Numbered from the stretch's first letter, positions 19,621 through 64,000 are shown. The stretch: 64,000 bases of DNA from Calditrichota bacterium (GCA_013150955.1 JAADJD010000013.1:27488-91487); one strand, 5' to 3'. Numbers and translations: made by a program. The notes: a model not told the origin generated them from the letters alone.

Positions 19621-21033
19621 TCAAACGGTCGAATAGACTTCGGTCTCGATGGTATTCCCGATCACATAAAAGCGGCGCCGGCGAAGCTTGCGTTTAACCT
19701 CATAGGTCTTCTTTTCAATCTGAATGGTCACCTTCTCAAAAATATCGCCAGTGACAATCACTTCCGCCCGTTTGATGTCCTCCAACGCCTTCTCCAGATG
19801 CTTCTTTTCGGCTTCCATTTTCTGGATTCTCTCAGGGATGAGATCATTCTGGCGCTGTAAAAATTGCAGGTGTTTCTCCTCCTGCTCATTCAAATCGCCA
19901 TCAATCTGCCGCAAAACCAGATCGTAAATCTCCTGCTTCAGCTCGATGATCCGATCGTAATAGGCGTCAATTTCTTCCTGTACTTTGGCCAGTTTGCGTT
20001 TTAATATTTCATCCTGCCCCACGATTAAAAAGGTGGGAACTCCTTCGGTGCTTCCAACCACATCTACCTGGATTTTATACTGGGCTTCGCAGCGGCCGGA
20101 AATGATGCGTCCTCGTGGGCTCAGAATCATATTGCCTGCGGTAATATTGCTGCCGATTAATTCATATTCAAAATACAGATTTTCCCCGGCCTGAATGTTT
20201 TGATACCGGGCAAACGCCAGCAGCACGTTCCGGTCGGCCATAATCAATCCTTTACCATGTCCAATAAATCCTTTGTGAACAATCACATCCCGGCGGCCGT
20301 GAATGCGAGCGTCTTCCACCACGCCATACACTTCCACGTCTTCTCCCGCTTCGATGCGGGTGTTGGCCTTGACGTCGCCCAGGACGATGACGGAACCGGA
20401 TTCCCGCACGTTTCCCACGGTGGGATCCATCTGATCCAGCACCCGAACCGGCTTCACCCATACCTTATTCGGCTCTTCAAAAAAGGCAAAGCCATCGGTA
20501 GCCGCAACAAATACATTGGGATTGCCTGGATCGCGGGTAACCCCCTCCCCGGTCTGCAGGGTAAGCTGGGGGACCTCTTTAACCGGGATCAGCTCCCCCA
20601 GAACGGTTCGCCCCTCGCGGGATGGCTGTCCCGGAATAAAACGGATCAACGCCGTTCCTTTGCGCACCAGATTGGGATGCCGAAAGGTGCCAAATCGGAT
20701 TTCCAGCTTCTCGTCAAATACGATGGGTTTTCGGGGGGTAAAATCGACCAGTTTTTGAATCTGTGCGGGACGACCGACCTGCGGGGGGCGGCCACGGGCA
20801 ACCAGAATGCGTTTATCCGCCTGCTTTTCCAGCAACAATTTTTTAATATTTTCCTTGTCCAGCCCGAAACGGATCCCGGCCTGCTGAAGCTTTTGCTTCA
20901 ATAGCCCCGCCAGTTGTTGCGTGGGAAGGGAGAAATTCGAAATCGTGGCATAAACTTCCATATGATCGCGAGAAATTTCCAGCCGGACAAATTCATCGGT
21001 GTTCGATGTGGAGGTGGGAGAGGGATCAATCAT
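19621..21033 (-). CDS. DUF342 (FapA-type) polymer-forming domain protein
   Basis: About 470 residues. The central beta-helix-like region carries the characteristic DUF342 pattern (SGSVIVLGDVKANTRIEAGEDVEVYGVVEDA, then VIVHKGFIGHGKGLIMADRNVL and SNITAGNMILSPRGRI). Before it is an N-terminal domain, and after it a long coiled coil (about residues 350-440). DUF342 proteins are often encoded next to flagellar or motility genes after fliA; their role is not settled. The ATG at 21033 overlaps the end of the upstream receiver-kinase gene by eight bases. It is the last gene of the minus-strand block. Confidence 0.87.
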   Translation of the reverse strand: MIDPSPTSTSNTDEFVRLEISRDHMEVYATISNFSLPTQQLAGLLKQKLQQAGIRFGLDKENIKKLLLEKQADKRILVARGRPPQVGRPAQIQKLVDFTPRKPIVFDEKLEIRFGTFRHPNLVRKGTALIRFIPGQPSREGRTVLGELIPVKEVPQLTLQTGEGVTRDPGNPNVFVAATDGFAFFEEPNKVWVKPVRVLDQMDPTVGNVRESGSVIVLGDVKANTRIEAGEDVEVYGVVEDARIHGRRDVIVHKGFIGHGKGLIMADRNVLLAFARYQNIQAGENLYFEYELIGSNITAGNMILSPRGRIISGRCEAQYKIQVDVVGSTEGVPTFLIVGQDEILKRKLAKVQEEIDAYYDRIIELKQEIYDLVLRQIDGDLNEQEEKHLQFLQRQNDLIPERIQKMEAEKKHLEKALEDIKRAEVIVTGDIFEKVTIQIEKKTYEVKRKLRRRRFYVIGNTIETEVYSTV

Positions 21034-22216
21034 GGCGCACCGCACGATCTTTACTGCGAACCCGTTTAAACGTGGGAATCTTCAAAATAAAACAATTTCC
21101 ATCCTGAAATTCCGGATCCAGCCGGATATCGCCGCCATGGGCATTCATGGCCAGCTTGCAGAAAATCAGTCCCAGTCCACGGGCCGGTTTGATTCCCGCC
21201 TTCTTCAACTCGGTTTGCCCGAATTTCTGAAATACCTTTTCCTGAAACGGGGGAGGTATGGCGTTCCCATCGTGGCATACCCGCATTTCCAGAAATCCAT
21301 CGGAAGTCTTTCCGGTGGTGACCAGAATGGTCATATATTCCGGGGTATTCTGGAAAACAAAATTGAACAGATTATCCAGGATTCGTTCAAACACGTCCTT
21401 ATCCACATAAGCCGGGGATAAACCGGATGCCAGTTTTAACTGCACGGTTTTATTTTCGTGCTCAGGAATATCCTGGAAATATTCCACCGTGTTCTTAATT
21501 AACGGATGGATATCCACCGGTACCGGCTCCAGATCCATGGTTTTCTGTTCTAATCGACTGATGTCCAATAAGTTCAACACCATGCGTAACAGGCTGCGAC
21601 TGCTGCGTTCAATGCGGCGCGTATACTTTTCGTCCGGTTCGCTGCCGCCGGCCTGCTTTTGCATGTGCATCATCTGTAAATTCCCCTGAATAACAAACAG
21701 GGGATTTTTCATGTCATGCACAATTAAGTTGGTCAGTTCTTTTTTCAAGAGATCCTCTCGTTCCAGAATCTGTTTCTGGCGCTCCAGTTCCTTGTTGCGC
21801 CGGATCAGTTCATCGTAATACAGTTTAAGGCGGAGCAGTGACTTCACCCGTGCCAGCAGTTCCACACTGTCGAAGGGTTTGGAGATAAAATCATCCGCCC
21901 CCGCCTCCAGCGCGCGGATCTTGTCTTTCAGCTCCTTCAGCGCCGTGATCATCACAATGGGGATGTAAAAGGTGCGGCTATTTTTCTTCAATCGCTCGCA
22001 TACCTGAAAACCATCCAGCCTGGGCAGCATGATGTCCAGCAGGATAATATCCGGCGGATCCCGCTCCACCATCTCGATGGCCTGAATACCATCCATCGCT
22101 GTGATCACTTCGTATCCCGCCGGTTTCAGAAAATAAACCAACAGGTCAATGCTTTCCTGGCTGTCTTCGACGATTAAAACTTTTAGTTTCCGATCCGTTG
22201 GGAAAATCGTATCCAT
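21026..22216 (-). CDS. Receiver-histidine kinase fusion protein
   Basis: This 396-residue cytoplasmic protein has an N-terminal receiver domain (about residues 12-130; acidic pocket ED at 17-18, phosphoacceptor Asp at about 61 in ILLDIMLP). A coiled coil, a HisKA domain (LIVHDMKNPLFVIQG, His at about 167) and a HATPase domain with a GLGLIFCKLA G-box follow. The order, receiver first and kinase second, suggests its kinase is controlled by another kinase's phosphorylation of the receiver. The GAF kinase three genes upstream is the obvious candidate. It starts directly after the stop of the FliK-like gene. Confidence 0.88.
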   Translation of the reverse strand: MDTIFPTDRKLKVLIVEDSQESIDLLVYFLKPAGYEVITAMDGIQAIEMVERDPPDIILLDIMLPRLDGFQVCERLKKNSRTFYIPIVMITALKELKDKIRALEAGADDFISKPFDSVELLARVKSLLRLKLYYDELIRRNKELERQKQILEREDLLKKELTNLIVHDMKNPLFVIQGNLQMMHMQKQAGGSEPDEKYTRRIERSSRSLLRMVLNLLDISRLEQKTMDLEPVPVDIHPLIKNTVEYFQDIPEHENKTVQLKLASGLSPAYVDKDVFERILDNLFNFVFQNTPEYMTILVTTGKTSDGFLEMRVCHDGNAIPPPFQEKVFQKFGQTELKKAGIKPARGLGLIFCKLAMNAHGGDIRLDPEFQDGNCFILKIPTFKRVRSKDRAVRHD

Positions 22217-23359
22217 TTAAGCAACCTTATCCACCATTGACACCGAATGCTCTAACATTTGCCGGAATCCCTGGCCGGGCTGAATTCCCTTTGTGTATGA
22301 TAAATTAACCTTTCGGAAGCCCAATTGCATTAGTTTTTCTTTCAAACTTATCTTGTGAGAATCGACCACCTGTGGGAATTCTTTATGATCATTGTAAAAT
22401 ACCACCCGGATCTCTCCATCGGTGCAATCGCCCCGCACCTGAATGACCCGCCAGATGGGATGCTCCACCTCGAAATGAAACCGGGTACGGAAAGCCTTTG
22501 CCAGCGGCTCCTTTCTGACAAATAAAAATCGGGAATGGCCCTCAAAATCGGTCGGGAAGATGGCCCATTTCCCGTTTTGGTAGCGTCGGAGCTGTTCTTC
22601 CAGAAAGCGAAAGCAATCCTGCCAAAACCCTGCCGTTTCCATCTTCTCTCCATCAGCGATTGCTGTATTCAAAAACTGCTGGATCGCCCATCGAAGGTAA
22701 CGGTCAAAGGGGGTGGGATCTTGCCATGCCTCCGATGTCACAAGCGACTCAATCCGTGCCTCATGTTCGGGGGAGGCTGGCACCGACTCTGCCGATTTTT
22801 TCGGCTGCCGACGCGACTTCTCCCGCGAATCCTCCAGTCCCCAGTACCATTTTAATAAAAAGAACGGATCTGCCAGAGCCAGGTGAGCAAAAATACCTGA
22901 TTGCACAAAGTAGGGCAACAGGAATATATCACCCGGAAGTGGATTTTCCCAGCGATATTTCCGGTAAATGGATTTCAACAGTTTCAACTCGTCCAGACGC
23001 ATCACCAGCCCAAACTGGATGGACAATCGGAAAAAATCCAGCGTCAACGCATCTGCTGAAAATCCGAACTGCCGCGCCAGTTGTTTGATCTGCCCCCGTG
23101 CCTGCAACCGCTGAATGGTCGATATCAGACGCAGGTGGATGCGTGTCCCCACCTCCTTCAATTCCATCACCAGTAACTGGCCGTTGGATAAATCCAGCCG
23201 GCTATTCACCGATATTACCTGCTGACCAATCCGTACCCGATACTGAAACGGCCCTTTGCGTTCCACCACGCGTCCCACCAGCACATCACCTTTTTTTACA
23301 GGAAAATGGGAAGGGCTAAACGGGGCAGGCTGATTTGTTTGTACCTCTAAAAGACTCAT
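22217..23359 (-). CDS. FliK-like hook-length-control-type protein (second copy)
   Basis: A 380-residue protein without a signal peptide. The N-terminal 75 residues (VLVGRVVERKGPFQYRVRIG, then NGQLLVMELKEVGTRIHLRL) resemble the small beta domain found at the start of some FliK-family proteins. The last 120 residues (GKWAIFPTDFEG, FHFEVEHPIWRVIQVRGD, LMQLGFRKVNLSYTKG) have the beta-alpha pattern of the FliK C-terminal domain (Flg_hook). The helical middle is unassigned. Canonical FliK is encoded at 43897-46059, so this would be a paralogue or a divergent relative. The assignment rests on pattern, not search. GAGGTAA precedes its ATG. Confidence 0.5.
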   Translation of the reverse strand: MSLLEVQTNQPAPFSPSHFPVKKGDVLVGRVVERKGPFQYRVRIGQQVISVNSRLDLSNGQLLVMELKEVGTRIHLRLISTIQRLQARGQIKQLARQFGFSADALTLDFFRLSIQFGLVMRLDELKLLKSIYRKYRWENPLPGDIFLLPYFVQSGIFAHLALADPFFLLKWYWGLEDSREKSRRQPKKSAESVPASPEHEARIESLVTSEAWQDPTPFDRYLRWAIQQFLNTAIADGEKMETAGFWQDCFRFLEEQLRRYQNGKWAIFPTDFEGHSRFLFVRKEPLAKAFRTRFHFEVEHPIWRVIQVRGDCTDGEIRVVFYNDHKEFPQVVDSHKISLKEKLMQLGFRKVNLSYTKGIQPGQGFRQMLEHSVSMVDKVA

Positions 23360-23364
23360 TTACC

Positions 23365-24840
23365 TCATGCTTGTTTCGCCGACAATTCCAGGAACAATTC
23401 CACTTCGTGCTGACCCAGCTGTAACTCCCGTGCTATTTCCGGTATGCTGTAATTTCGGGCCAACAGATCCAGAATCTGCTGCTTGTAGTTTTGATTGCGA
23501 TGCACCATATGATGATGGGCACTCAGATTGAGCGCCAGCTCAATTTCTCCGACCCCCAGATTCAATTCCTTTGCCAGCTGTTTCTGGCGTTCGGGACTCC
23601 AGCTTCCCGCCCCCTCGTCCCATGCCGCCTGTTCCTGTGGGGGATTCGGGTGCGATTGTTTTTCTGCCAGATCGAATGGTTCTTCACCGGGTGCCTGCAG
23701 ATTCGCGTCCCGCTCCTGCGATTCCGACTGCTCCTTTTTATCCTGAAGCTGACTTACCATTTGCAAAATTTGCTTTTTGCGGGCGGCGACATTCACGGTT
23801 TGATTCGCCGGTTTGGGAGCCACCTGTCGCCGGGTTTGCGCCGCCTGCACAAGAAACTTTTCCCGCTGTCGCTTCAATCCGTGCAACACCGCAATCGAAA
23901 ATCCGAACAGCGCAAACACGGATCCAAGGATAAGATACACCAGCAGACGCTGCCGGGCGCGTTTTTGGGGAGGAGAAGCACCCTGCGCCAGTTGAGCGCT
24001 ATCGGCAACGGCAGGGGTTTCTGCGGCCCGAAGCGAATCGCTGGTGGCTTCCACCAGTTTGATTCGCATGGGAGGTTCGCTTTTGGTCTTCTTTTTCGCC
24101 TGTTCGGCTTCCTCCCGCTGTGCCTTGACTTCCTGATATTTCTTCTCGTAAGATTGTGCCAGCTGGATTTTACCGGATTCCCGGTACAAACGGGCCATGT
24201 ACAGGTAAATCCGGGTAGAATCGCAACCTTTCCGCAGCGCGTGATTGAAATTTATTTCCGCCAGGCGGTACTGCTTCCAGGCCAGGCGAATTTGACCCGC
24301 TTTATAATAGGCATGGGCATGTCCCCGGTTCTGAAAGACCACTCGCCGATAATACTGCAACGCCGTTTTTAAATCCCCCTTCCGCTGGTAGTACACCCCC
24401 CGCCAGTAGAGATTGTCCAGCGGCTGCCGGTACTGGCGATCCTGAATCTCCAGCCGAATCCGGGTACTACCCGTTCTGACCTGAAATTCCAGTTTGTCCA
24501 GCAAATCGACGATTACCAACCCATGGGCGTTATCGATGGGGATATAACGGATCCCCACAATCCCCGATGTTTGCGGTGGCTGCGGAGGTGTTCCGGCAAC
24601 CAGACCACTGAATGTTATACCGGCAGCTTCATCCAGAGATAGCTTTAAAATGATTTTATTTGCTGGCGAAAAATTCAGCAGTTTTACCTGGGTGGGATGG
24701 GGAAACTGGAGCTGTATTCGGGTAAGGTCAGCGGTCTGTTCGTACCGAATATCCATTGCACTGGCCCACTGCACCCCAAACAGCCAGCCAATCAGCCAGA
24801 CCATTTTCACCCAATCAGGCAATCGTTGCAAGCGATACAT
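23365..24840 (-). CDS. AMIN-like / TPR / transmembrane protein with C-terminal helix-turn-helix-like tail
   Basis: About 491 residues from the ATG at 24840 (GGGAGTGACG upstream), with a signal peptide. Residues about 25-140 resemble an AMIN beta domain. TPR-like repeats follow (YWRGVYYQRKGDLKTALQYYRRVVFQNRGHAHAYYKAGQIRLA). A single membrane helix lies near residue 310 (LLVYLILGSVFALFGFSIAVLHG). The cytoplasmic tail is Gln/Glu-rich and ends in two similar segments (LGVGEIELALNL, LGQHEVELFLEL), which resemble the short helix-turn-helix tail of DUF6115 proteins encoded near fliA in other phyla. It could connect the periplasm and cell wall to a cytoplasmic partner. Function unknown. Confidence 0.6.
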   Translation of the reverse strand: MYRLQRLPDWVKMVWLIGWLFGVQWASAMDIRYEQTADLTRIQLQFPHPTQVKLLNFSPANKIILKLSLDEAAGITFSGLVAGTPPQPPQTSGIVGIRYIPIDNAHGLVIVDLLDKLEFQVRTGSTRIRLEIQDRQYRQPLDNLYWRGVYYQRKGDLKTALQYYRRVVFQNRGHAHAYYKAGQIRLAWKQYRLAEINFNHALRKGCDSTRIYLYMARLYRESGKIQLAQSYEKKYQEVKAQREEAEQAKKKTKSEPPMRIKLVEATSDSLRAAETPAVADSAQLAQGASPPQKRARQRLLVYLILGSVFALFGFSIAVLHGLKRQREKFLVQAAQTRRQVAPKPANQTVNVAARKKQILQMVSQLQDKKEQSESQERDANLQAPGEEPFDLAEKQSHPNPPQEQAAWDEGAGSWSPERQKQLAKELNLGVGEIELALNLSAHHHMVHRNQNYKQQILDLLARNYSIPEIARELQLGQHEVELFLELSAKQA

Positions 24841-26233
24841 CGTCACTCCCTGACTGAAATTGAACATTCTTTTTTATTCGAATAATGATCGTATTCCCCT
24901 CTTCCGGGGACGACTGTATGTCCACTTCTCCGCCAATGTCGCGGATCATCTGGACACTCACCATCAGGCTTAAATTGTGCTGCGACCCCGATACGCTGAA
25001 GGGTACCAGGGCGTTGGCCACATCGTTGGGATCCAGAGGTTCCCCGTTATCGTGAATGCGGATTTCAATAAATTCGTCATCGACCATGGCCGTTTCGATG
25101 CGCAATTTGCCCCCCTGGGCCAACTGCTTTTTGGCCGTCAAGAAGAAGTTCAGCAAGATCTGCTGCAAATACACCGAATTGGCCGTAATCACCGGCAGTT
25201 TGTCGGCCAGTTTCAGATCGATCTCGATGCCCCGTTTCTCAATTTGTCCGCGTACTAATTTTAACGTATTGACAATTAGCGGATTGATTTCCACCAGATC
25301 AGACGCCTGTTGCTTGTTTTCCTTGGCCAGCATCAACAGCCCGCGGACGATGGTGGCAATGCGCAACGCCTGCATCTCCACAATCTTCAGCGTGTCCTGA
25401 CTGTTGTTGCCCATCATGGCCACCTGGATCTTACCCAGAATAATCTGCAATGGATTGTTAATCTCGTGCGCGATTCCACCGGCCAGCTCGCCAACCGTGG
25501 CCAACTTGACCGCCTGCATCAATTGCGCCTGGGACTTTTTCAATTCCGTATGGGTCTTTTCCAGATCTTTAAACAATCGCGTGTATTGAATGGCTATGGC
25601 CGTTTGCATACCCAGAAGGTTGATCAATTCCAGATCGCGCAGGGAAAATTGGCTCTGATCTTTTTGTGTGTGCAAAAACAACATTCCAATGCGATTGTCG
25701 TTCACGATCAGCGGGGTGATTACCAGATTCCCGTCGTTTAGTTCCAGTTCCTTGCAAATCATGAACTCATGCAATGGTACCACAATCGATTGTTGATGCT
25801 CCCACATCCATTCCAGGATACCCTCTTCCATCATGGCCTGCGACAATCGCAAGAAATCGTTCTGGTGATTCTCCAGCACCACAATCCACTGATCCCCCTC
25901 TTTTAAAATCACGTTCCCCGATTCGTAGCGAATGATTCGGGTACAGAGTTTCAGCAGCGAGGCCACAATCTTATCGTACTCCAGGTGCTGGGTGATAATT
26001 TCCGAGGCCTTCTGAATGGTCAGGAATTCATCCAGCGAGTAGGACAGATCCCCGTGGAGTTTTTTATGATATTCCAGTTCCTGCTTGAGGGTGTGGATGT
26101 CCTCTTTTAAACGGTTGACCAGGGAGATATAATTTTCGACGATCGAATCGATTTCTCCACTGGTAAATGCCCGTCCTTTAAGATCCTGGACTAAAAAATC
26201 CACATCCTGGTGGTTACGGAAATTGGAAAACAT
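24815..26233 (-). CDS. Cytoplasmic GAF-domain histidine kinase
   Basis: This 472-residue protein has no membrane helix. An N-terminal coiled coil (about residues 1-60) leads to a GAF domain (about 65-215; IGMLFLHTQKDQSQFSLRDLELINLLG). A second coiled coil and a HisKA domain follow (GELAGGIAHEINNPLQIILG, His at about 256), then a HATPase domain (about 360-455). The HEINNPL sequence is typical of NtrB-like kinases. It lacks its own receiver, so it may phosphorylate the receiver-kinase fusion encoded downstream or a FleR/NtrC-type regulator elsewhere. Its 3' end overlaps the next gene by 26 bases. Confidence 0.88.
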   Translation of the reverse strand: MFSNFRNHQDVDFLVQDLKGRAFTSGEIDSIVENYISLVNRLKEDIHTLKQELEYHKKLHGDLSYSLDEFLTIQKASEIITQHLEYDKIVASLLKLCTRIIRYESGNVILKEGDQWIVVLENHQNDFLRLSQAMMEEGILEWMWEHQQSIVVPLHEFMICKELELNDGNLVITPLIVNDNRIGMLFLHTQKDQSQFSLRDLELINLLGMQTAIAIQYTRLFKDLEKTHTELKKSQAQLMQAVKLATVGELAGGIAHEINNPLQIILGKIQVAMMGNNSQDTLKIVEMQALRIATIVRGLLMLAKENKQQASDLVEINPLIVNTLKLVRGQIEKRGIEIDLKLADKLPVITANSVYLQQILLNFFLTAKKQLAQGGKLRIETAMVDDEFIEIRIHDNGEPLDPNDVANALVPFSVSGSQHNLSLMVSVQMIRDIGGEVDIQSSPEEGNTIIIRIKKNVQFQSGSDDVSLATIA

Positions 26234-26258
26234 CCTTATTCTCCTTCCTGGTTAATGG

Positions 26259-27170
26259 TCAGGTTACAGTGGACTCTTCTTTTACCTTGCGATTCAGCAA
26301 GGTAGCCAGAAAGTCGTCAACTTTTTCATTTTCTCTTCGAAAGGCATCCTGATAGTATTCCAGTGGTTGCGGTTGCTTGAAGAGCCCTTTTAAACGTTCT
26401 TCGATATCCACATCGGAAAATTCCGGTAGCTGATTTAATCCGCCACCCTCATCGATGGAGTGGCTAATTAAATCAGCCAGGTGAATTGACCAGACGAATT
26501 CGCGGTACTTCAGGGTTTCCGGAGGTTGATGATGAAACCGAATGGCCTGGACTAACTTTTCGGGCAAATTCCAGCCTTCGGCCAGCCAGCTGCCGACCTC
26601 GGCATGGGAAAATCCCAGCACCGAATATTCGGCCTGTAAAAACGGCACCTGCTTTTCGCGGGCATATTTCATTACCCTTTCGAACAGACTGGGAAAGTGC
26701 TGAACCAGTACCAGATAACCGATGTCGTGTAACAAACCTCCCACAAACACCTCGCCCGCCACCGAATAGCGCACCATGCGCGACAGCATTCGGGAACCCA
26801 TGGCCACCACCACCGCATGGCGCCAGAATTTTTCCAGATTAATGTCGCCATTAAAATTGCGATTGAACTGATCGATGACCGAGATGCTGAGAACCAGATC
26901 CCGCAGGGCATTGAATCCCAGCACCACGATGGCCAGGTTCAGGGTGGAGATGCGCCGCGGAAAACCGTAAAATGCCGAATTGGCCAGCTTCAGAATGCGA
27001 GCCGTCAAAACCTGATCGGCCGAGATGACCTCACCAAGGCGCGATGCTGAGGTTCGGGGATTTTCCACCAATTCCAGTACGCGAGTGGCAATTTGCGGCA
27101 ATGTGGTTAAACGCGAAATGGACTGGACGCGGTTGCGAATATCTATCAGTGAAATTTCTCGTTGTCTCAT
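26259..27170 (-). CDS. HDOD domain signalling protein
   Basis: About 303 residues; the ATG at 27170 with upstream AAGGA is preferred over an in-frame TTG at 27185. The HDOD domain (about residues 15-215) begins LTTLPQIATRVLELVENPRTSASRLGEVISADQVLTARILKLANSAFYGFPRRI, of which only the core is quoted here; an HDIGYL segment lies near residue 148. HDOD proteins resemble HD phosphohydrolases but generally lack full catalytic residues and act as regulators in motility and c-di-GMP networks. It follows a 109-residue orphan gene by 11 bases and precedes the GAF kinase by 25 bases. Confidence 0.88.
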   Translation of the reverse strand: MRQREISLIDIRNRVQSISRLTTLPQIATRVLELVENPRTSASRLGEVISADQVLTARILKLANSAFYGFPRRISTLNLAIVVLGFNALRDLVLSISVIDQFNRNFNGDINLEKFWRHAVVVAMGSRMLSRMVRYSVAGEVFVGGLLHDIGYLVLVQHFPSLFERVMKYAREKQVPFLQAEYSVLGFSHAEVGSWLAEGWNLPEKLVQAIRFHHQPPETLKYREFVWSIHLADLISHSIDEGGGLNQLPEFSDVDIEERLKGLFKQPQPLEYYQDAFRRENEKVDDFLATLLNRKVKEESTVT

Positions 27171-27181
27171 CCCGAATTCCT

Positions 27182-27511
27182 TCAAATTTTAACATCCAGG
27201 TGTTTTACATGCCCTTCTTCGTCTTTCTCAATAATCGCATGGCCTTCTGCCGAACGGGGAGTGGCTTTTTTGGTCTCTTTCCCCCTGCGAGATCCCCGAC
27301 GACCTTTTTCCTGATCCTCGCCCTTTTCTTTCAACAGTGCCTTCTCCGAACCCTCCGCCTTGACGGGTTTGTTCTGTAAGCCTTCCAGATACTGCTGAAT
27401 GGAATTTTCCAGTACCTGCTGGTGGATTTCCGGCAATTTCCGCTGGGTGAGGTACTGTTTATCCCCGGATAACACCCCGGCCTGCAGATACTGAATTTTA
27501 ATTGGGACCAT
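27182..27511 (-). CDS. Small charged protein of unknown function, flagellar-linked
   Basis: A 109-residue protein. The first half is mildly hydrophobic and helical (MVPIKIQYLQAGVLSG), the middle is very rich in Lys, Arg, Glu and Gly (EKGRRGSRRGKETKK), and the end, GHVKHLDVKI, is a compact hydrophobic tail. No signal or membrane helix was seen and no family recognised. The extreme charge suggests a disordered linker between two short interacting ends. It starts the transcription unit that carries the HDOD, kinase and DUF342 genes, 158 bases after fliA. Confidence 0.55.
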   Translation of the reverse strand: MVPIKIQYLQAGVLSGDKQYLTQRKLPEIHQQVLENSIQQYLEGLQNKPVKAEGSEKALLKEKGEDQEKGRRGSRRGKETKKATPRSAEGHAIIEKDEEGHVKHLDVKI

Positions 27512-27669: not shown

Positions 27670-28425
27670 TTAAACACTTAGTTCTTTCTTCAACATCCGT
27701 TTCAGGGTCTTGATGGTTTCGGAATGAATCTGGGAAATCCGGCTTTCGGAAACATTCAGAATTTTACCAATTTCCTTAAACGTCAGGCGTTCGTAATAGT
27801 ACAGGGTCAAAGCCAGCCGGGCTTTTTCGGGCAGCTTCTTGATTAACCGGGCCAGCACCTCCTTCATTTCCTGCGATTCCAGGTCCTCCAGCGGATTGCC
27901 CGTGGAGCTATCTTCCACCGAATCGTACAAATTGTGATCATCAAAATTGGGATTGGGTTTGTCCAGTGAAACCATGTTCGTCCGGTTCAATTCGGACTGC
28001 CACTGGTGATACTCTTCCTCGCTGATTCCCAGATGATACGCCACCTGCTGATCCGAAATTTCACCCCGTTGAACCTGCTCCAGCTCTTCCACAACCTTCT
28101 TAATCTTGTTCGACTTGGACCGCAGGGATCGCGGAATCCAATCCTGCTTCCGCAACTCATCGATAATGGCCCCTTTAATCCGTGGAATGGCGTAAGTCTC
28201 GAACTTGATGCCAAAGTAGGGATTGTAACGATCCAGCGCTTCGCTTAACCCAATAACCCCGATGTGCACCAGATCCTCACGATCCACGTTCGAGGGAATG
28301 GATTTAAACAATTTGTTTACCACATAATGCACCAGGCCTAAATACTTGACCATCAACTGATTGCGTAATTCCGGGGATTTCTGTTGATGGTACGCTTGCC
28401 ACAATGAATCCACTTTTGCCTTCAT
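27670..28425 (-). CDS. fliA: RNA polymerase sigma factor FliA (sigma-28)
   Basis: This 251-residue sigma factor of the FliA/WhiG family directs late flagellar and motility transcription. Region 2 is visible in LVHIGVIGLSEALDRYNPYFGIKFETYAIPRIKGAIIDELRK (core only), region 3 in the middle, and region 4 in RLTFKEIGKILNVSESRISQIHSE. Length and order are normal. It is encoded after flhF, flhG and an 88-residue membrane protein, the same neighbourhood as in many bacteria. Its anti-sigma factor FlgM was not found here. A possible target promoter lies before flbD-motA at 40435-40461. Confidence 0.96.
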   Translation of the reverse strand: MKAKVDSLWQAYHQQKSPELRNQLMVKYLGLVHYVVNKLFKSIPSNVDREDLVHIGVIGLSEALDRYNPYFGIKFETYAIPRIKGAIIDELRKQDWIPRSLRSKSNKIKKVVEELEQVQRGEISDQQVAYHLGISEEEYHQWQSELNRTNMVSLDKPNPNFDDHNLYDSVEDSSTGNPLEDLESQEMKEVLARLIKKLPEKARLALTLYYYERLTFKEIGKILNVSESRISQIHSETIKTLKRMLKKELSV

Positions 28426-28450: not shown

Positions 28451-28717
28451 TTATTGATTTTCTCCCGTTGATGAAGGGGACTGAACCGGGACCTGTTCCG
28501 GCGCAGCCTCTTCTTCATTCTTTTTCAATTGGGCTTTCAAAAAATTGTAGGTGGTTTGATTGTAAATGAGCAACACCACCAGCTCCAGCACGGAAAAAAT
28601 CAGGTAAATGACAAACGACCGAATTAGATTATCCAGTAACGAAAGCTTGAGATAAAATCCCGACAGGAACGTGATCAAAAAGACCAGAATGGACAGTTTA
28701 AAGGGTAACTGACTCAT
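28451..28717 (-). CDS. Small two-helix membrane protein between flhG and fliA
   Basis: An 88-residue protein with two membrane helices (about residues 6-25 and 32-53) and a polar, Glu/Pro-rich cytoplasmic tail (KKNEEEAAPEQVPVQSPSS). It is not a recognised flagellar component. Its ATG overlaps the flhG stop by four bases, and fliA follows after 25 bases, so it is co-translated with the placement and sigma-factor genes. It might tether FlhG or FliA to the membrane, which is a guess from position only. Confidence 0.6.
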   Translation of the reverse strand: MSQLPFKLSILVFLITFLSGFYLKLSLLDNLIRSFVIYLIFSVLELVVLLIYNQTTYNFLKAQLKKNEEEAAPEQVPVQSPSSTGENQ

Positions 28718-43896: not shown

Positions 43897-46059
43897 TCAT
43901 GCAATGTAATCAATCGTGTTATAGCCTAACCAACGGGGTTGTTTCACCCGATTGTCTCCTGAAATAGTCGTCTGGGCATCTGCATCCTCTGTCTGATGAG
44001 AATTACCCGTGAGGGACTGATGTGTCCCCTGCTGTCGCAGGGTCGGTTCCTCCTCCAGATCCCGATTCAGACTCAAATCAAATTGTTGAATGTCAATCTG
44101 GCTCTCCCGCAACCGATCCATCAACTGCTGGTAATGCTGCTGCAACACCCGCAACGCATCGGGATGACTGGTTTCCACCTTACCCGTCAGGCGATCTCCT
44201 TCCATCTTCAGCTGAATGCGAACCAATCCCAGTGAGGCCGGTTTCAGCCGAATCCAGATTTCCTGACGATTGGTCTGTCCCGAATAGCGCACCTGCTCGA
44301 TCCAATTTTTAAGAAAAGAGGGGAAGGATTCCGTCATATCCTGCATGGATAACGGTTGGCCCCAGCTTTTCGGCGCAGAGTCCATTCCTTGCCGCATGGT
44401 CGAATACACTGGATGATTCAGGGGCTTCTCACCAAAAAACAAGGATTGGGTAATCCTTCCCCCTTCTGAGGTAGTGGTTTTATTGGATCCCGCTTCTAAG
44501 GCTGCCCCAGCATCCTTCTGGGTAGATGGTGCGGGACGCGTTGCCACATCCGGTTTTCCCTCTTCAGTAAGATTGTCCAATCCGGAAAACGATTGTGCTG
44601 CGTTCTTCACAACCGGATCGGGTCGATACTCCTGAAACACATCTGTTTTAAACGAATGGGAAACAAGTGTCGTTTTCGGTGCAACGACCGGTTCCGAAAA
44701 ATGGCGAAAGGCTTCGGCAACTCGCTGCCATCCCTTTCGGGCCTCTAACGGCAGCACCCGATGATCCGCCTTCGGGCGGGCGTCTTCGATGGGCCTGCCT
44801 GGCCGGGACGTCTCCGGAAAAACTCGCTGAACGTCGGAAAAGGGTTCCGCTGCCGATTCGTTCCCAACGCGTAACATCGGTTCTGTATGCCCAGCCGCTC
44901 GTTTTGGAAAATCAACAAGTTGATCAACGGGGTGTTTTACTGACGCCTTTTCCGGTGCGGCGTTCGGCAATATGACCGGCATGTTCGTCCCAACCGGATC
45001 GTCGGAACGCGGCAGGTACTGCACTTCGTTTGCCACCGTCACCGGCGCTTTGTTCACCGGCAAATCTCCCGGCCATTGGTCTTTAAATGGAATCCCTGGT
45101 TGGACATATTCCAGCTTTCCAACAAATTCCACCCGTTCCCCTCCCGGCCAATTCAACTGGAGAACAGCTGCCGTCGACGCCCCTGCTCCCTCACGGGTGG
45201 GCATAACCCACTTTGCTGCGATTTCTGAATGCATTTGAGGAGTTGTTGCCGAAATCGCTTCTTTGTTGACCCTTGGCAAATGGGTGGTTGTATTCCCTGG
45301 TAAACCATTCTGCTGAAGGTTTTCATTCCCGGAAAAAATCGGGCTCCTGCTGAGTTCAGGTTCCATTGCCACCGAAACGCGCGGGGGCAGTGGATTTTCG
45401 CCTTTCACTAATGATTGACCGGCCGAATGGGATGGATTCCCCTCTGCCGAAATTGCCTGCACCCGGCCTTTTTCTGCTGGCATTTCAGTTACTGAAAAAT
45501 CTGCGGGTAAGGTCGCTGGAAAGTAGCGGGCCTCCTGAACGGAAAAAACCAGCGGGGGATTGCCCCCGGCATCTCGAAGAATGTGAATGCGCACCGGCGA
45601 TGGCCAGATAAAGCGATAGGGAGACACCCCGTCGGTGCGTTCCCGCATTTCAGCAGCCAACGGTTTCTGTCGTTCGGGTTCTGGTAAAGCGATTAACTCC
45701 CCGGGAACTTGCGGAAGTTTCTCTTTCCCGGTTTCCCCTGTCGGTACATTTCCATCAATGTTTCCAAAGAGGATTTGAATGGCGGGGAAACTTCTGGTTT
45801 CGGATTCCATCACCGCGGCATGAGGGACTGTACCGGATGGATTGGCGGCGATGGGGGAAAAAGAATCCTTCGGTTGTAGATTGACCACGAACGGAATGTC
45901 CGATGTGGAAACCTGTTTCTGCCCTGCCCGACCTGCTGCCAATAACAGGTTGGCAAAGGAAATTGGGGAAAATTGAGTCGGCCTTTCCGGGCTGGGAATG
46001 GGCACCTGCCCCTTGGTGGGGGAAGGTAAAAAGAGAATTGTTTTCCACGTCGTGAACAT
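43897..46059 (-). CDS. fliK: Flagellar hook-length control protein FliK
   Basis: About 720 residues from the ATG at 46059 (AAAGGT upstream; a GTG at 46068 is also in frame). A long, low-complexity, Pro/Ser/Glu-rich region of some 580 residues is expected of a molecular ruler. The C-terminal Flg_hook domain (about 600-690) shows IWIRLKPASLGLVRIQLKMEGDRLTG (core) and LRVLQQHYQQLMDRLRESQIDIQQFDLSL (core). FliK measures the hook and triggers FlhB switching. It sits between motE and flgD, the normal order. A second FliK-like protein is encoded at 22217-23359. Confidence 0.93.
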   Translation of the reverse strand: MFTTWKTILFLPSPTKGQVPIPSPERPTQFSPISFANLLLAAGRAGQKQVSTSDIPFVVNLQPKDSFSPIAANPSGTVPHAAVMESETRSFPAIQILFGNIDGNVPTGETGKEKLPQVPGELIALPEPERQKPLAAEMRERTDGVSPYRFIWPSPVRIHILRDAGGNPPLVFSVQEARYFPATLPADFSVTEMPAEKGRVQAISAEGNPSHSAGQSLVKGENPLPPRVSVAMEPELSRSPIFSGNENLQQNGLPGNTTTHLPRVNKEAISATTPQMHSEIAAKWVMPTREGAGASTAAVLQLNWPGGERVEFVGKLEYVQPGIPFKDQWPGDLPVNKAPVTVANEVQYLPRSDDPVGTNMPVILPNAAPEKASVKHPVDQLVDFPKRAAGHTEPMLRVGNESAAEPFSDVQRVFPETSRPGRPIEDARPKADHRVLPLEARKGWQRVAEAFRHFSEPVVAPKTTLVSHSFKTDVFQEYRPDPVVKNAAQSFSGLDNLTEEGKPDVATRPAPSTQKDAGAALEAGSNKTTTSEGGRITQSLFFGEKPLNHPVYSTMRQGMDSAPKSWGQPLSMQDMTESFPSFLKNWIEQVRYSGQTNRQEIWIRLKPASLGLVRIQLKMEGDRLTGKVETSHPDALRVLQQHYQQLMDRLRESQIDIQQFDLSLNRDLEEEPTLRQQGTHQSLTGNSHQTEDADAQTTISGDNRVKQPRWLGYNTIDYIA

Positions 46060-46130
46060 CCCGTTCACCTTTAATTGTTCATCCTGAACTTCATTGTCAA
46101 CAGTAATTATCGTTATACGGGCGGGGATCT

Positions 46131-61200: not shown

Positions 61201-62583
61201 TTATTCCTTTCCATTATCCGTTTTCTTCAATAATCCATGTTTGCGCAGCTTTTTGTAAAGATTCGACCGATCGATTCCCAGGATGCGGGCGGCTTCTCCT
61301 TTTTTCCACCCCACCTTATCCAGCACAAATTTCAGGTAATTTTTCTCGAAGATTCGGTGGGCTGTTTGAATGTCCATGAGTTCAAAAATTTCCCCGGAAT
61401 ACAGTGGATGTTTCGCCGAATGGGCTTTCATCTGCTCCAATACGGTCTCCGGAGTAATCTCATCCCCCTCGCTGAAGATAACCAGCTTTTCCATCAAATT
61501 TCGCAGCTCCCGGACATTCCCTGGCCAATCGTAATTGAGAAACAATTCCTCGGTAAGGGGATGCAATTTCAGAACGCGTCGGTTATAACTCTGGCTAAAT
61601 TTCTCCAGGTAATAATAGGCCAGTGGAAGTACATCTTCTTTCCGCTCCCTTAATGGGGGAATGTGAATTCGCAGGACGTCCAACCGATGATACAAATCCA
61701 GTCGGAATTTTTGTTGCTCAATTAATTGCTCCAGATCCTTATTCGTCGCGGCAATGACCCGCACATCCACTTTCTGCGGGGTCGCATCACCAATGACTTC
61801 AATTTCATTTTCTTCTAACACCCGTAGAAGTTTTCCCTGCAAGCGGATATCCATGTCTCCAATTTCATCCAGAAACAGGGTTCCCCCATTTGCCGCCATG
61901 AATTTGCCTTTTCGATCCTCAATGGCTCCCGTAAAGGCGCCCTTGCGATGGCCAAACAATTCGGCCTCCAGTAATTCCGAAGGGATGGCTGCACAATTGA
62001 CCTTAATATAAGGTTTGGCCTTTCGCCGACTGCGGTGATGAATGGCCCAGGCTACCAGCTCTTTTCCAACTCCGCTCTCCCCCGTGATGAGCACTTTCGC
62101 ATCCACTTCAGCCGCCTTTTCAATATCCAGGAAAACCTTTTTCAATGCCTTGCTGGTACCGATCATCCGATAATTTTCCTGCAGCTCGCGGAAAATGTTT
62201 TCTTTTTCTTCAATCAGCGTCCTTTTTTCAATGGCATTCTGCACCGAAACCAGGAGGCGATCGGGGTCAATAGGCTTTTCAATGAAATCATAAGCGCCGA
62301 TCTTCAGGGCTTCCACCGCAATCCCGATGGTGCTTTCGCCGGAAATCATGATCACCGGTAGCTGACCATGCTCCCTTTTCACCAGTTTTAACAAGTCCAT
62401 CCCGCTCAATGCAGGCATTCGCACGTCCAGCAAAATACAGCTATAGCTTTCCTTTTGTAGCATGTCGGGGACGATTTTCGGATTGCTCACCGTGTCCACC
62501 CGATAGCGGCGGGTTTCCAGTAATCGTTTTAAATTGCGGAGCAAAACCTCGTCGTCATCAACCACCAATATGCGATTGTTCAT
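61201..62583 (-). CDS. NtrC-family sigma-54-dependent response regulator
   Basis: The 460-residue regulator has a receiver domain (acidic pocket DDD at 9-11, phosphoacceptor Asp at about 53 in ILLDVRMPALSG). The AAA+ sigma-54-activation domain shows Walker A GESGVGKE near residue 167 and the sigma-54 contact motif GAFTGA near 216, with FLDEIGDMD as Walker B. A Fis-type helix-turn-helix (GEAARILGIDRSNLYKKLRKHGL core) ends the chain. It activates sigma-54 promoters. A histidine kinase gene lies 42 bases upstream. Its targets are unknown; glnA is only a positional guess. Confidence 0.95.
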   Translation of the reverse strand: MNNRILVVDDDEVLLRNLKRLLETRRYRVDTVSNPKIVPDMLQKESYSCILLDVRMPALSGMDLLKLVKREHGQLPVIMISGESTIGIAVEALKIGAYDFIEKPIDPDRLLVSVQNAIEKRTLIEEKENIFRELQENYRMIGTSKALKKVFLDIEKAAEVDAKVLITGESGVGKELVAWAIHHRSRRKAKPYIKVNCAAIPSELLEAELFGHRKGAFTGAIEDRKGKFMAANGGTLFLDEIGDMDIRLQGKLLRVLEENEIEVIGDATPQKVDVRVIAATNKDLEQLIEQQKFRLDLYHRLDVLRIHIPPLRERKEDVLPLAYYYLEKFSQSYNRRVLKLHPLTEELFLNYDWPGNVRELRNLMEKLVIFSEGDEITPETVLEQMKAHSAKHPLYSGEIFELMDIQTAHRIFEKNYLKFVLDKVGWKKGEAARILGIDRSNLYKKLRKHGLLKKTDNGKE

Positions 62584-62625
62584 CTCCTGTACCTGCCTTT
62601 TTCGTTACCGCCTGAATCTCCCCTG

Positions 62626-64000
62626 CTACCGTCGCATTGGCAATGTTATCCGGAATGTGGTGCCCAGATTCTCTTTGCTATAAAATGTGATTGTTCCGCT
62701 ATGATCTTCAACAATCTTTTTAGCAATCGCCAGCCCCATTCCCGTTCCATCCTTTTTCGTGGTAAAAAAGGGTTCGAAAATGCTGTTTTGTTGATCCAGA
62801 GGAATGCCCGGCCCGCTGTCGAAAATTTCAATTTCACACAAAGGAGGAGCGTTTTCAATAACATTTTCCACCCGCGTTGTCTGAATTGCAATGCTACCAC
62901 TTCCCTTCATGGCATCAATGGCATTCTCCAGAATAATGTTAAACACCATTTCCATCTGCTGAGGATCGAAATAAAACAATTCCATTTCCGGATCCAGATC
63001 CATCGACAATTCGATGCTCCCATGTTCAAAGAAGTCCTTAAACCGGTTCAGACTTTGTTGCAAGCATTGATGAATATCAGAAAGCCGGTAGTTCGGACTT
63101 TCCAGATTGGTAAATTTCAGAAAACTTTTTGTAATGGCATGAATCCGCTCGATCTCGGTGCGCATGGTATGCAGATCTTCCTGCAGCTCCTGTTTGTTTT
63201 CCAGGGACGAAGAAACGATGTAGTGCTCCAGAGTCTTCAATCCCACGGTAATAGATGACAGGGGGGTTTTAATATCATGCGCCAACTTCTGAACGGTCTT
63301 CGCCCATATCCTGGCTCGCTCACCAAGTTCGGAGGTTTGTACATCACCAATCTCAATCAAATACCCATAGGGGATATCAAACCAGGAAGTTAAAGGTTTA
63401 AGATACAAGCGACGTTCAAAAACCTTTCCATCAAACTTGAGAGTTATCTGTTTTGAGACTTCTTGATTTTGTTTGATGAGAGATTGGACTATTACCAGAA
63501 GTTCTGGATGGTCATTAAAAATTTTACGAAAATGTTCTCCCCTTCTAATTGGATTTGCAATGTGCAAAAGACTCAAAAATTTCTGATTAAATGAAATGAC
63601 CCGTCCTTTATAATCAATGATTAATACACCGTTTCGGCTGCTTTTCAGATAGACCAACAAAAACCCTAAATAAATGAAGAAGAATGCGGCCAGACGATGA
63701 ATAATCACTAACGACAAATAGGTTAAACCAATCACCAAAGGAAAAATAAGATATCTCCAGGTGTAAACAGGATTTACACTAAGTCGAAATAACCCCGTAC
63801 CCTCGGGACTCGAAAAACACAAACTGGGCAACTCCTGACTACCATTCCACTTTATAGAAAAATAATAATCCGGTGTTATATTGAGTTCTTTTAGGGTCCT
63901 GTTAAATAAAGTTTCCAGCTTTTCATTTAAAATCATCACACCATGTGAACCGTAAACGAATAGCTCCGGTTGTTTATCCCAATTTAAGTCCTGATAACTA
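62626..64000 (-). CDS. Membrane-bound sensor histidine kinase (5' end beyond window)
   Basis: At least 458 residues. The frame stays open to the right edge: upstream of the internal start at 63939 it reads WDKQPELFVYGSHGV into the same protein, so the true start lies outside. An N-terminal sensor part, two adjacent membrane helices, a PAS-like domain (NGVLIIDYKGRVISFNQKFLSLLHIANP core), HisKA (LAHDIKTPLSSITVGLKTL core) and HATPase (ENAIDAMKGSG; DGTGMGLAIAKKIVEDH core) follow in order. With the NtrC-type regulator 42 bases downstream it forms a two-component pair of NtrB/NtrC style. Confidence 0.92.
   Translation of the reverse strand, partial: SYQDLNWDKQPELFVYGSHGVMILNEKLETLFNRTLKELNITPDYYFSIKWNGSQELPSLCFSSPEGTGLFRLSVNPVYTWRYLIFPLVIGLTYLSLVIIHRLAAFFFIYLGFLLVYLKSSRNGVLIIDYKGRVISFNQKFLSLLHIANPIRRGEHFRKIFNDHPELLVIVQSLIKQNQEVSKQITLKFDGKVFERRLYLKPLTSWFDIPYGYLIEIGDVQTSELGERARIWAKTVQKLAHDIKTPLSSITVGLKTLEHYIVSSSLENKQELQEDLHTMRTEIERIHAITKSFLKFTNLESPNYRLSDIHQCLQQSLNRFKDFFEHGSIELSMDLDPEMELFYFDPQQMEMVFNIILENAIDAMKGSGSIAIQTTRVENVIENAPPLCEIEIFDSGPGIPLDQQNSIFEPFFTTKKDGTGMGLAIAKKIVEDHSGTITFYSKENLGTTFRITLPMRR

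Follow-up and report, generated by a model that had tools for sequence, protein, structure and literature searches.

In Bacillus subtilis, the gene after sigD is swrB. SwrB activates flagellar export, and does so in a FliF-dependent way (PMC4526659). FipA, a DUF2802 protein, has been reported for gammaproteobacteria (Vibrio, Pseudomonas, Shewanella) as a polar-flagellum factor; it binds FlhF, needs its own membrane anchor, and requires the glycine of its motif for FlhF binding (PMC11620751). Flagellar-clade sigma factors can also be co-opted, as is the case for WhiG of Streptomyces and Rubrobacter (PMC8325347).

The locus described here is the end of a flagellar operon. The favored reading, at a probability of roughly 0.55, is that it holds two functional sets: a flagellum-bound one, and a sigma-bound one of sigma-28, the HDOD protein and two probable pseudokinases. 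The phylum is a natural dissection series, in which flagella have been kept, lost or replaced across genomes. Comparing these genomes sorts an uncharacterised gene group into a flagellum-bound and a sigma-bound half, which makes specific tests possible.

The window is the whole stretch of 64,000 nucleotides that was analysed. The flagellar context upstream is fliR and flhB-flhA-flhF-flhG-p88-fliA, with the gene order confirmed. All seven genes downstream of fliA were found in the ORF map, on the minus strand, at 19621-27511. With fliA itself, the features are:

27670..28425, minus strand: fliA-type sigma-28, here called sigma-A (TIGR02479, 4e-78)
27182..27511, minus strand: charged 109-aa protein, a positional family with a C-terminal h-D-h-k-h tail
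26259..27185, minus strand: HDOD protein (PF08668, 7e-67), in the same position in about nine phyla
24815..26233, minus strand: GAF-HisKA-HATPase protein (GAF-HK, from Pfam), a probable pseudokinase by loss of ATP-site motifs
23365..24867, minus strand: AMIN-like/TPR/transmembrane protein with a cytoplasmic DUF6115/DUF2802-like tail, putatively of FipA/SwrB type
22217..23359, minus strand: second FliK-type protein, with an N-terminal barrel domain (profile match to Flg_hook proteins)
21026..22216, minus strand: REC-HisKA-HATPase protein (REC-HK; REC 5e-30), a probable pseudokinase and conserved sigma-A partner
19621..21045, minus strand: FapA, or DUF342 (PF03961 6e-51; PF20250, FapA_N, 2e-30)

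Neighbors in the seven-gene group are spaced by -53 to +25 nt, which is operon-like packing. The sole exception to tight spacing is an AT-rich gap of 158 nt between fliA and the 109-aa gene. The preliminary description had placed seven tightly spaced or overlapping genes after fliA, closing off the flagellar cluster, and every ORF as well as the context bears this out. Its naming of the HDOD protein, GAF kinase, receiver-kinase, DUF342 protein and DUF6115-like tail agrees with the Pfam matches. A scan of the gene group for sigma-70 promoters and terminators gave counts close to those of shuffled sequence. Between flhG and fliA lies p88, an 88-aa membrane-type protein (28451-28717) without a family. 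Equivalents occur at the same position in four other loci (L027, L029, L036, L041), and also in the other flagellar set discussed below (L124, L132).

Loci from outside were gathered by similarity to the HDOD protein, followed by iterated profiles. The order that recurs, whole or partially, is fliA, small charged protein, HDOD protein, GAF kinase, DUF6115/DUF2802 membrane protein, FliK-type protein. It was seen in loci of KSB1, Latescibacterota, Gemmatimonadota, Ignavibacteriota/Chlorobiota, Delongbacteria, LCP-89, Calditrichota, Glassbacteria and Fibrobacterota, or about eight phyla besides the window's own; given that the loci were collected by HDOD similarity, this shows recurrence and not frequency. 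Lack of such conservation outside this genome had been named beforehand as a reason to give up the grouping; since the order recurs, the opposite was found. The GAF kinase is absent or more distant in the loci of Calditrichota and Glassbacteria, and the protein at position 5 carries a Flg_hook domain in two loci (L042, L053). Latescibacterota and Gemmatimonadota have a short form of the membrane protein, made up of a single transmembrane helix, a coiled coil and a C-terminal segment with matches to DUF2802 as well as DUF6115. The long form, which has a TPR part and is AMIN-like in its N-terminal region, is found in the window's phylum, LCP-89, Delongbacteria, Calditrichota and Glassbacteria.

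The tail of the window's membrane protein matches DUF6115 at 3e-6 and 28.1 bits, where the cut-off is 27, over the last 42 positions only. By hhalign it also aligns (94.5%, E 8e-8) with the short proteins that other phyla have at this position, and these match DUF2802 and DUF6115 along the same stretch. FipA has the motif G-x15-E-x2-L (G110, E126, L129). The Glu and Leu are present at the same spacing in the window tail; the Gly position holds an Asn here and a Gly in L045 and L041. A DUF6115 match is present in B. subtilis as well, putatively in SwrB. On this sequence evidence, the best reading is that the cytoplasmic tail belongs with the FipA (DUF2802)/DUF6115 tails. Within this phylum the membrane protein occurs only with flagella. 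Because FipA binds FlhF and SwrB acts FliF-dependently, FlhF or the basal body would be the likeliest target of the window tail.

The preliminary description called this an AMIN/TPR protein. TPR has weak Pfam matches. AMIN (PF11741) is not detected by a Pfam scan of the window protein alone, but of 13 homologous N-terminal regions 2 do match it, the better at 1.2e-6, and a profile of such regions has the amidase AmiC as its best PDB match (8e-4). The homologues and the AmiC match suggest an AMIN fold. The predicted structure (mean pLDDT 75.7, pTM 0.49) has an N-terminal helix, an eight-strand domain at 39-142 and TPR helices at 149-262. These are followed by a long helix with transmembrane segment and coiled coil at 300-388 (helices 300-347 and 360-388) and a helical tail at 425-499. 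The model thus has a membrane anchor followed by a coiled coil, and suggests the topology given above. Fold searches with the model returned only TPR proteins; this is because the TPR domain fills the list. The AMIN region was judged from sequence profiles.

The 109-aa protein has no family match in Pfam, NCBIfam or PHROG. Small ORFs with the same C-terminal tail sit between fliA and the HDOD gene in L025, L028, L030, L036-L039, L041, L043, L109 and L110, with HLDVKI and HIDIKV as examples of the h-D-h-k-h pattern. The gene is missing at the flagella-less loci L113 and L116. A similar ending recurs in L042, L047 and L053 on the FliK-type protein, and in L126 and L132 on the small protein that follows fliA.

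The name FliK-like holds for the N-terminal part of the protein only. Pfam gives no match for it, Flg_hook included. Its N-terminal part does match the position-equivalent proteins that carry Flg_hook (hhalign E 9e-9), but its C-terminal part gives no significant profile match (E 0.21). The predicted structure (mean pLDDT 68) covers only the N-terminal barrel and has no significant PDB match. A role as hook-length ruler was considered, and is weakened by a canonical FliK elsewhere in the window (43897-46068, Flg_hook 3e-15). FapA, with bit scores of 174 for PF03961 and 105.7 for PF20250, both above the cut-off, is by sequence an ordinary DUF342 member in which no difference was found, and in this phylum it is limited to flagellated genomes. 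It ends the gene group in three lineage-A genomes (that of the window, G026 and G033) and is apart from fliA in f4-f6.

Forty genomes of the phylum were compared. Rod and hook proteins split these into 27 flagellated and 13 flagella-less ones, with which the presence of FlhA broadly agrees. The exceptions are G028, without FlhA, probably through a fragmented assembly; G036, with only a fragment at a contig edge; and G029 and G030, with distant matches only. In these last two, which have no rod or hook proteins, the matches are paired FHIPEP hits of some 100 bits in large ORFs (G029:C392, G030:C109).

Strong matches to the AMIN protein are found in 7 of the 27 flagellated genomes, the FliK-like protein in 5 and FapA in 22, and all three in 0 of the 13 flagella-less genomes; the Fisher values are 0.07 and 0.15 (not significant) and 7e-7 (significant), and these values and absences are indicative only, because the genomes share ancestry and many of them are not complete. 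Sigma-A behaves differently, being present in 23/27 flagellated and 9/13 flagella-less genomes, as does REC-HK (21/27 and 9/13, an orthologue in 30 of 40). GAF-HK is found in 8/27 and 2/13. Two of the 13 flagella-less genomes retain the set of sigma, HDOD protein, GAF kinase and receiver-kinase; GAF-HK and HDOD orthologues outside flagellated genomes were seen in two sister genomes only. Free occurrence of the genes in relatives without flagella had been named beforehand as a second reason to give up the grouping. It is found for one part of the group, the sigma factor and the genes that stay with it, but not for the AMIN protein, the FliK-like protein and FapA.

In every one of the 26 genomes that have sigma-A and REC-HK on one contig, REC-HK lies downstream of sigma-A in the same orientation, in 18 of them within 500 nt. 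They are adjacent in f4-f6, separated by a GAF-type kinase in G034 and G036, by an HDOD gene and GAF-HK in the flagella-less G037 and G039 (with a FlhG-like gene upstream), and by five genes in f1 and close relatives. In a sigma tree all sigma-A copies form one group (100/99), including stand-alone copies from flagella-less genomes. This group is separate from the sigma found beside flhA in f4-f6, G032, G034 and G036.

Those last genomes have another fliA adjoining flhA, followed by a small barrel protein, with a PAS kinase in L124 (loci L124-L135). The FlhA proteins of f4-f6 share about 70% identity with one another and 52-56% with the window's, which in turn is 53-64% identical to that of other phyla. 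This fits a second, different flagellar set in f4-f6. As outgroups have the order fliA-HDOD-GAF kinase beside flhA, the simplest history would be that the intervening genes were lost later, after the flagellum was lost or replaced.

The sigma may still be functional in the flagella-less G037 and G039. A perfect sigma-28 box, TAAA-N15-GCCGATAA, lies close upstream of HAMP-PAS histidine kinase genes in both (L175 in G037, L171 in G039). The two genes are orthologous (61%), and the upstream DNA around the boxes has otherwise diverged. Genome-wide counts of the sigma-28 consensus show little or no enrichment over a reversed control in most genomes, so that the suggested regulon stands on this one promoter pair. 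A sigma-28 site common to G000, G026 and G030 was dropped, as it falls inside a coding gene. FlgM was also considered as a universal sigma partner and rejected: it is absent or below threshold in most genomes, and above the cut-off almost only where a genome has a window-type operon.

The two kinases are unusual at the ATP site. REC-HK keeps the phospho-Asp (18/18) and Lys (17/18) of its receiver and the His of HisKA (18/18). Its second N-box Asn is replaced in all 17 readable copies, by Phe in 12 and Tyr in 5, and its second G1 Gly is missing in 17/17. GAF-HK of this phylum has lost this Asn in 9/11, this Gly in 11/11, and GGTGLGL, keeping the His in 11/11; in other phyla its ATP-site motifs are intact. 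The control for this comparison was the kinase at 62626-63939, which has intact motifs. A second kinase pair is present near the window's right end (61201-63939). With ATP-site residues lost and the His kept, both are probably pseudokinases, and at most phosphate carriers, where residue loss does not in itself prove absent ATP binding.

In the two-set reading, the flagellum-bound set would be the 109-aa protein, the AMIN/TPR/DUF6115 protein, the FliK-like protein and FapA. The membrane protein would be an assembly factor of the FipA/SwrB type: in the cytoplasm its helical tail would bind to FlhF or to the basal body, and in the periplasm its AMIN-TPR head would anchor it at the wall or envelope. 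The sigma-bound set would be sigma-28, the HDOD protein and both pseudokinases. Here the REC pseudokinase would serve sigma as its dedicated regulator. Its receiver and His domains may accept phosphate from a kinase encoded elsewhere, its state would then switch sigma activity, and the HDOD and GAF proteins would feed into it. In the window's lineage the sigma probably drives flagellar genes, and lineages that lost or replaced their flagella would retain sigma and REC pseudokinase for another purpose.

A bolder version of this is held only tentatively. It is that this is a new class of sigma-28 control. A flagellar-type sigma would have a receiver-bearing pseudokinase as its dedicated regulator, gated by phosphorylation; this pseudokinase would have joined the flagellar operon, survived with its sigma after the flagellum was lost or replaced, and taken on another regulon, with a hybrid kinase gene as one candidate target.

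The sigma-bound set could instead be a phosphorelay that does not bind sigma directly. ChpT and Spo0B are phosphate-carrying kinase-like proteins, and ChpT, a dimeric phosphotransferase that resembles a histidine kinase (PMC3433190), provides a precedent. REC-HK would likewise pass phosphate to a response regulator elsewhere, merely being co-transcribed with sigma, and its retained His and receiver residues next to a lost ATP site are what this would look like. It is nonetheless doubtful as the whole story, because alone it leaves the linkage to sigma on every shared contig, with and without flagella, unexplained.

Less probable again is the mechanism offered in the preliminary description, in which the AMIN head senses the state of the wall or flagellum and the tail passes it on to both kinases, all acting in a single flagellar checkpoint pathway. 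The AMIN protein and both kinases do share one operon in seven genomes, and the homologues back the AMIN fold. However, both kinases persist in G036, G037 and G039, where the AMIN protein is absent, and REC-HK is found without AMIN protein or GAF-HK in at least 20 further genomes. The proteins to which the tail is similar have FlhF or the basal body as their target rather than kinases. The route is unlikely because the kinases are kept where the AMIN protein is absent and lack ATP-site residues. That the regulators simply hitch-hike on one transcript with sigma, with no common function, is improbable too: several phyla do have HDOD-kinase pairs at a distance from flagellar genes (L088, L091-L093, L097, L099, L102), but neither the order conserved across the further phyla nor a sigma/REC-HK linkage that outlasts flagellar loss fits this.

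Returning to the two-set reading, the comparison suggests that a single positional family takes in FipA/DUF2802, SwrB/DUF6115 and the AMIN-TPR proteins that follow fliA, which are named separately in the literature searched. It also indicates a conserved pair of sigma-28 and pseudokinase; no described mechanism for such a pair was found in that literature.

Like FipA, the window protein has a membrane anchor, a coiled coil and a C-terminal helical domain; its gene lies towards the end of a flhA-flhF-flhG-fliA operon and co-occurs with FlhF. Unlike FipA, its anchor bears a large periplasmic AMIN-like/TPR part, and its tail scores best to DUF6115, not DUF2802, with an Asn for the motif Gly. SwrB of Bacillus subtilis is similarly a single-pass membrane protein, needed to activate flagellar export (PMC4526659), but it has no periplasmic domain.

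WhiG and RsiG likewise combine a flagellar-clade sigma with a linked regulator in a non-flagellar use (PMC8325347). Sigma-A and its linked gene are comparable in the 9 flagella-less genomes that have them, the window copy itself being in a flagellated genome. RsiG is a c-di-GMP-binding coiled-coil anti-sigma, whereas here the linked protein is a probable pseudokinase that bears a receiver. With ChpT and Spo0B, finally, REC-HK by its sequence would share a kinase-like fold and a phospho-accepting His without a working ATP site. It differs from both in having its own N-terminal receiver, and in adjoining a sigma factor.
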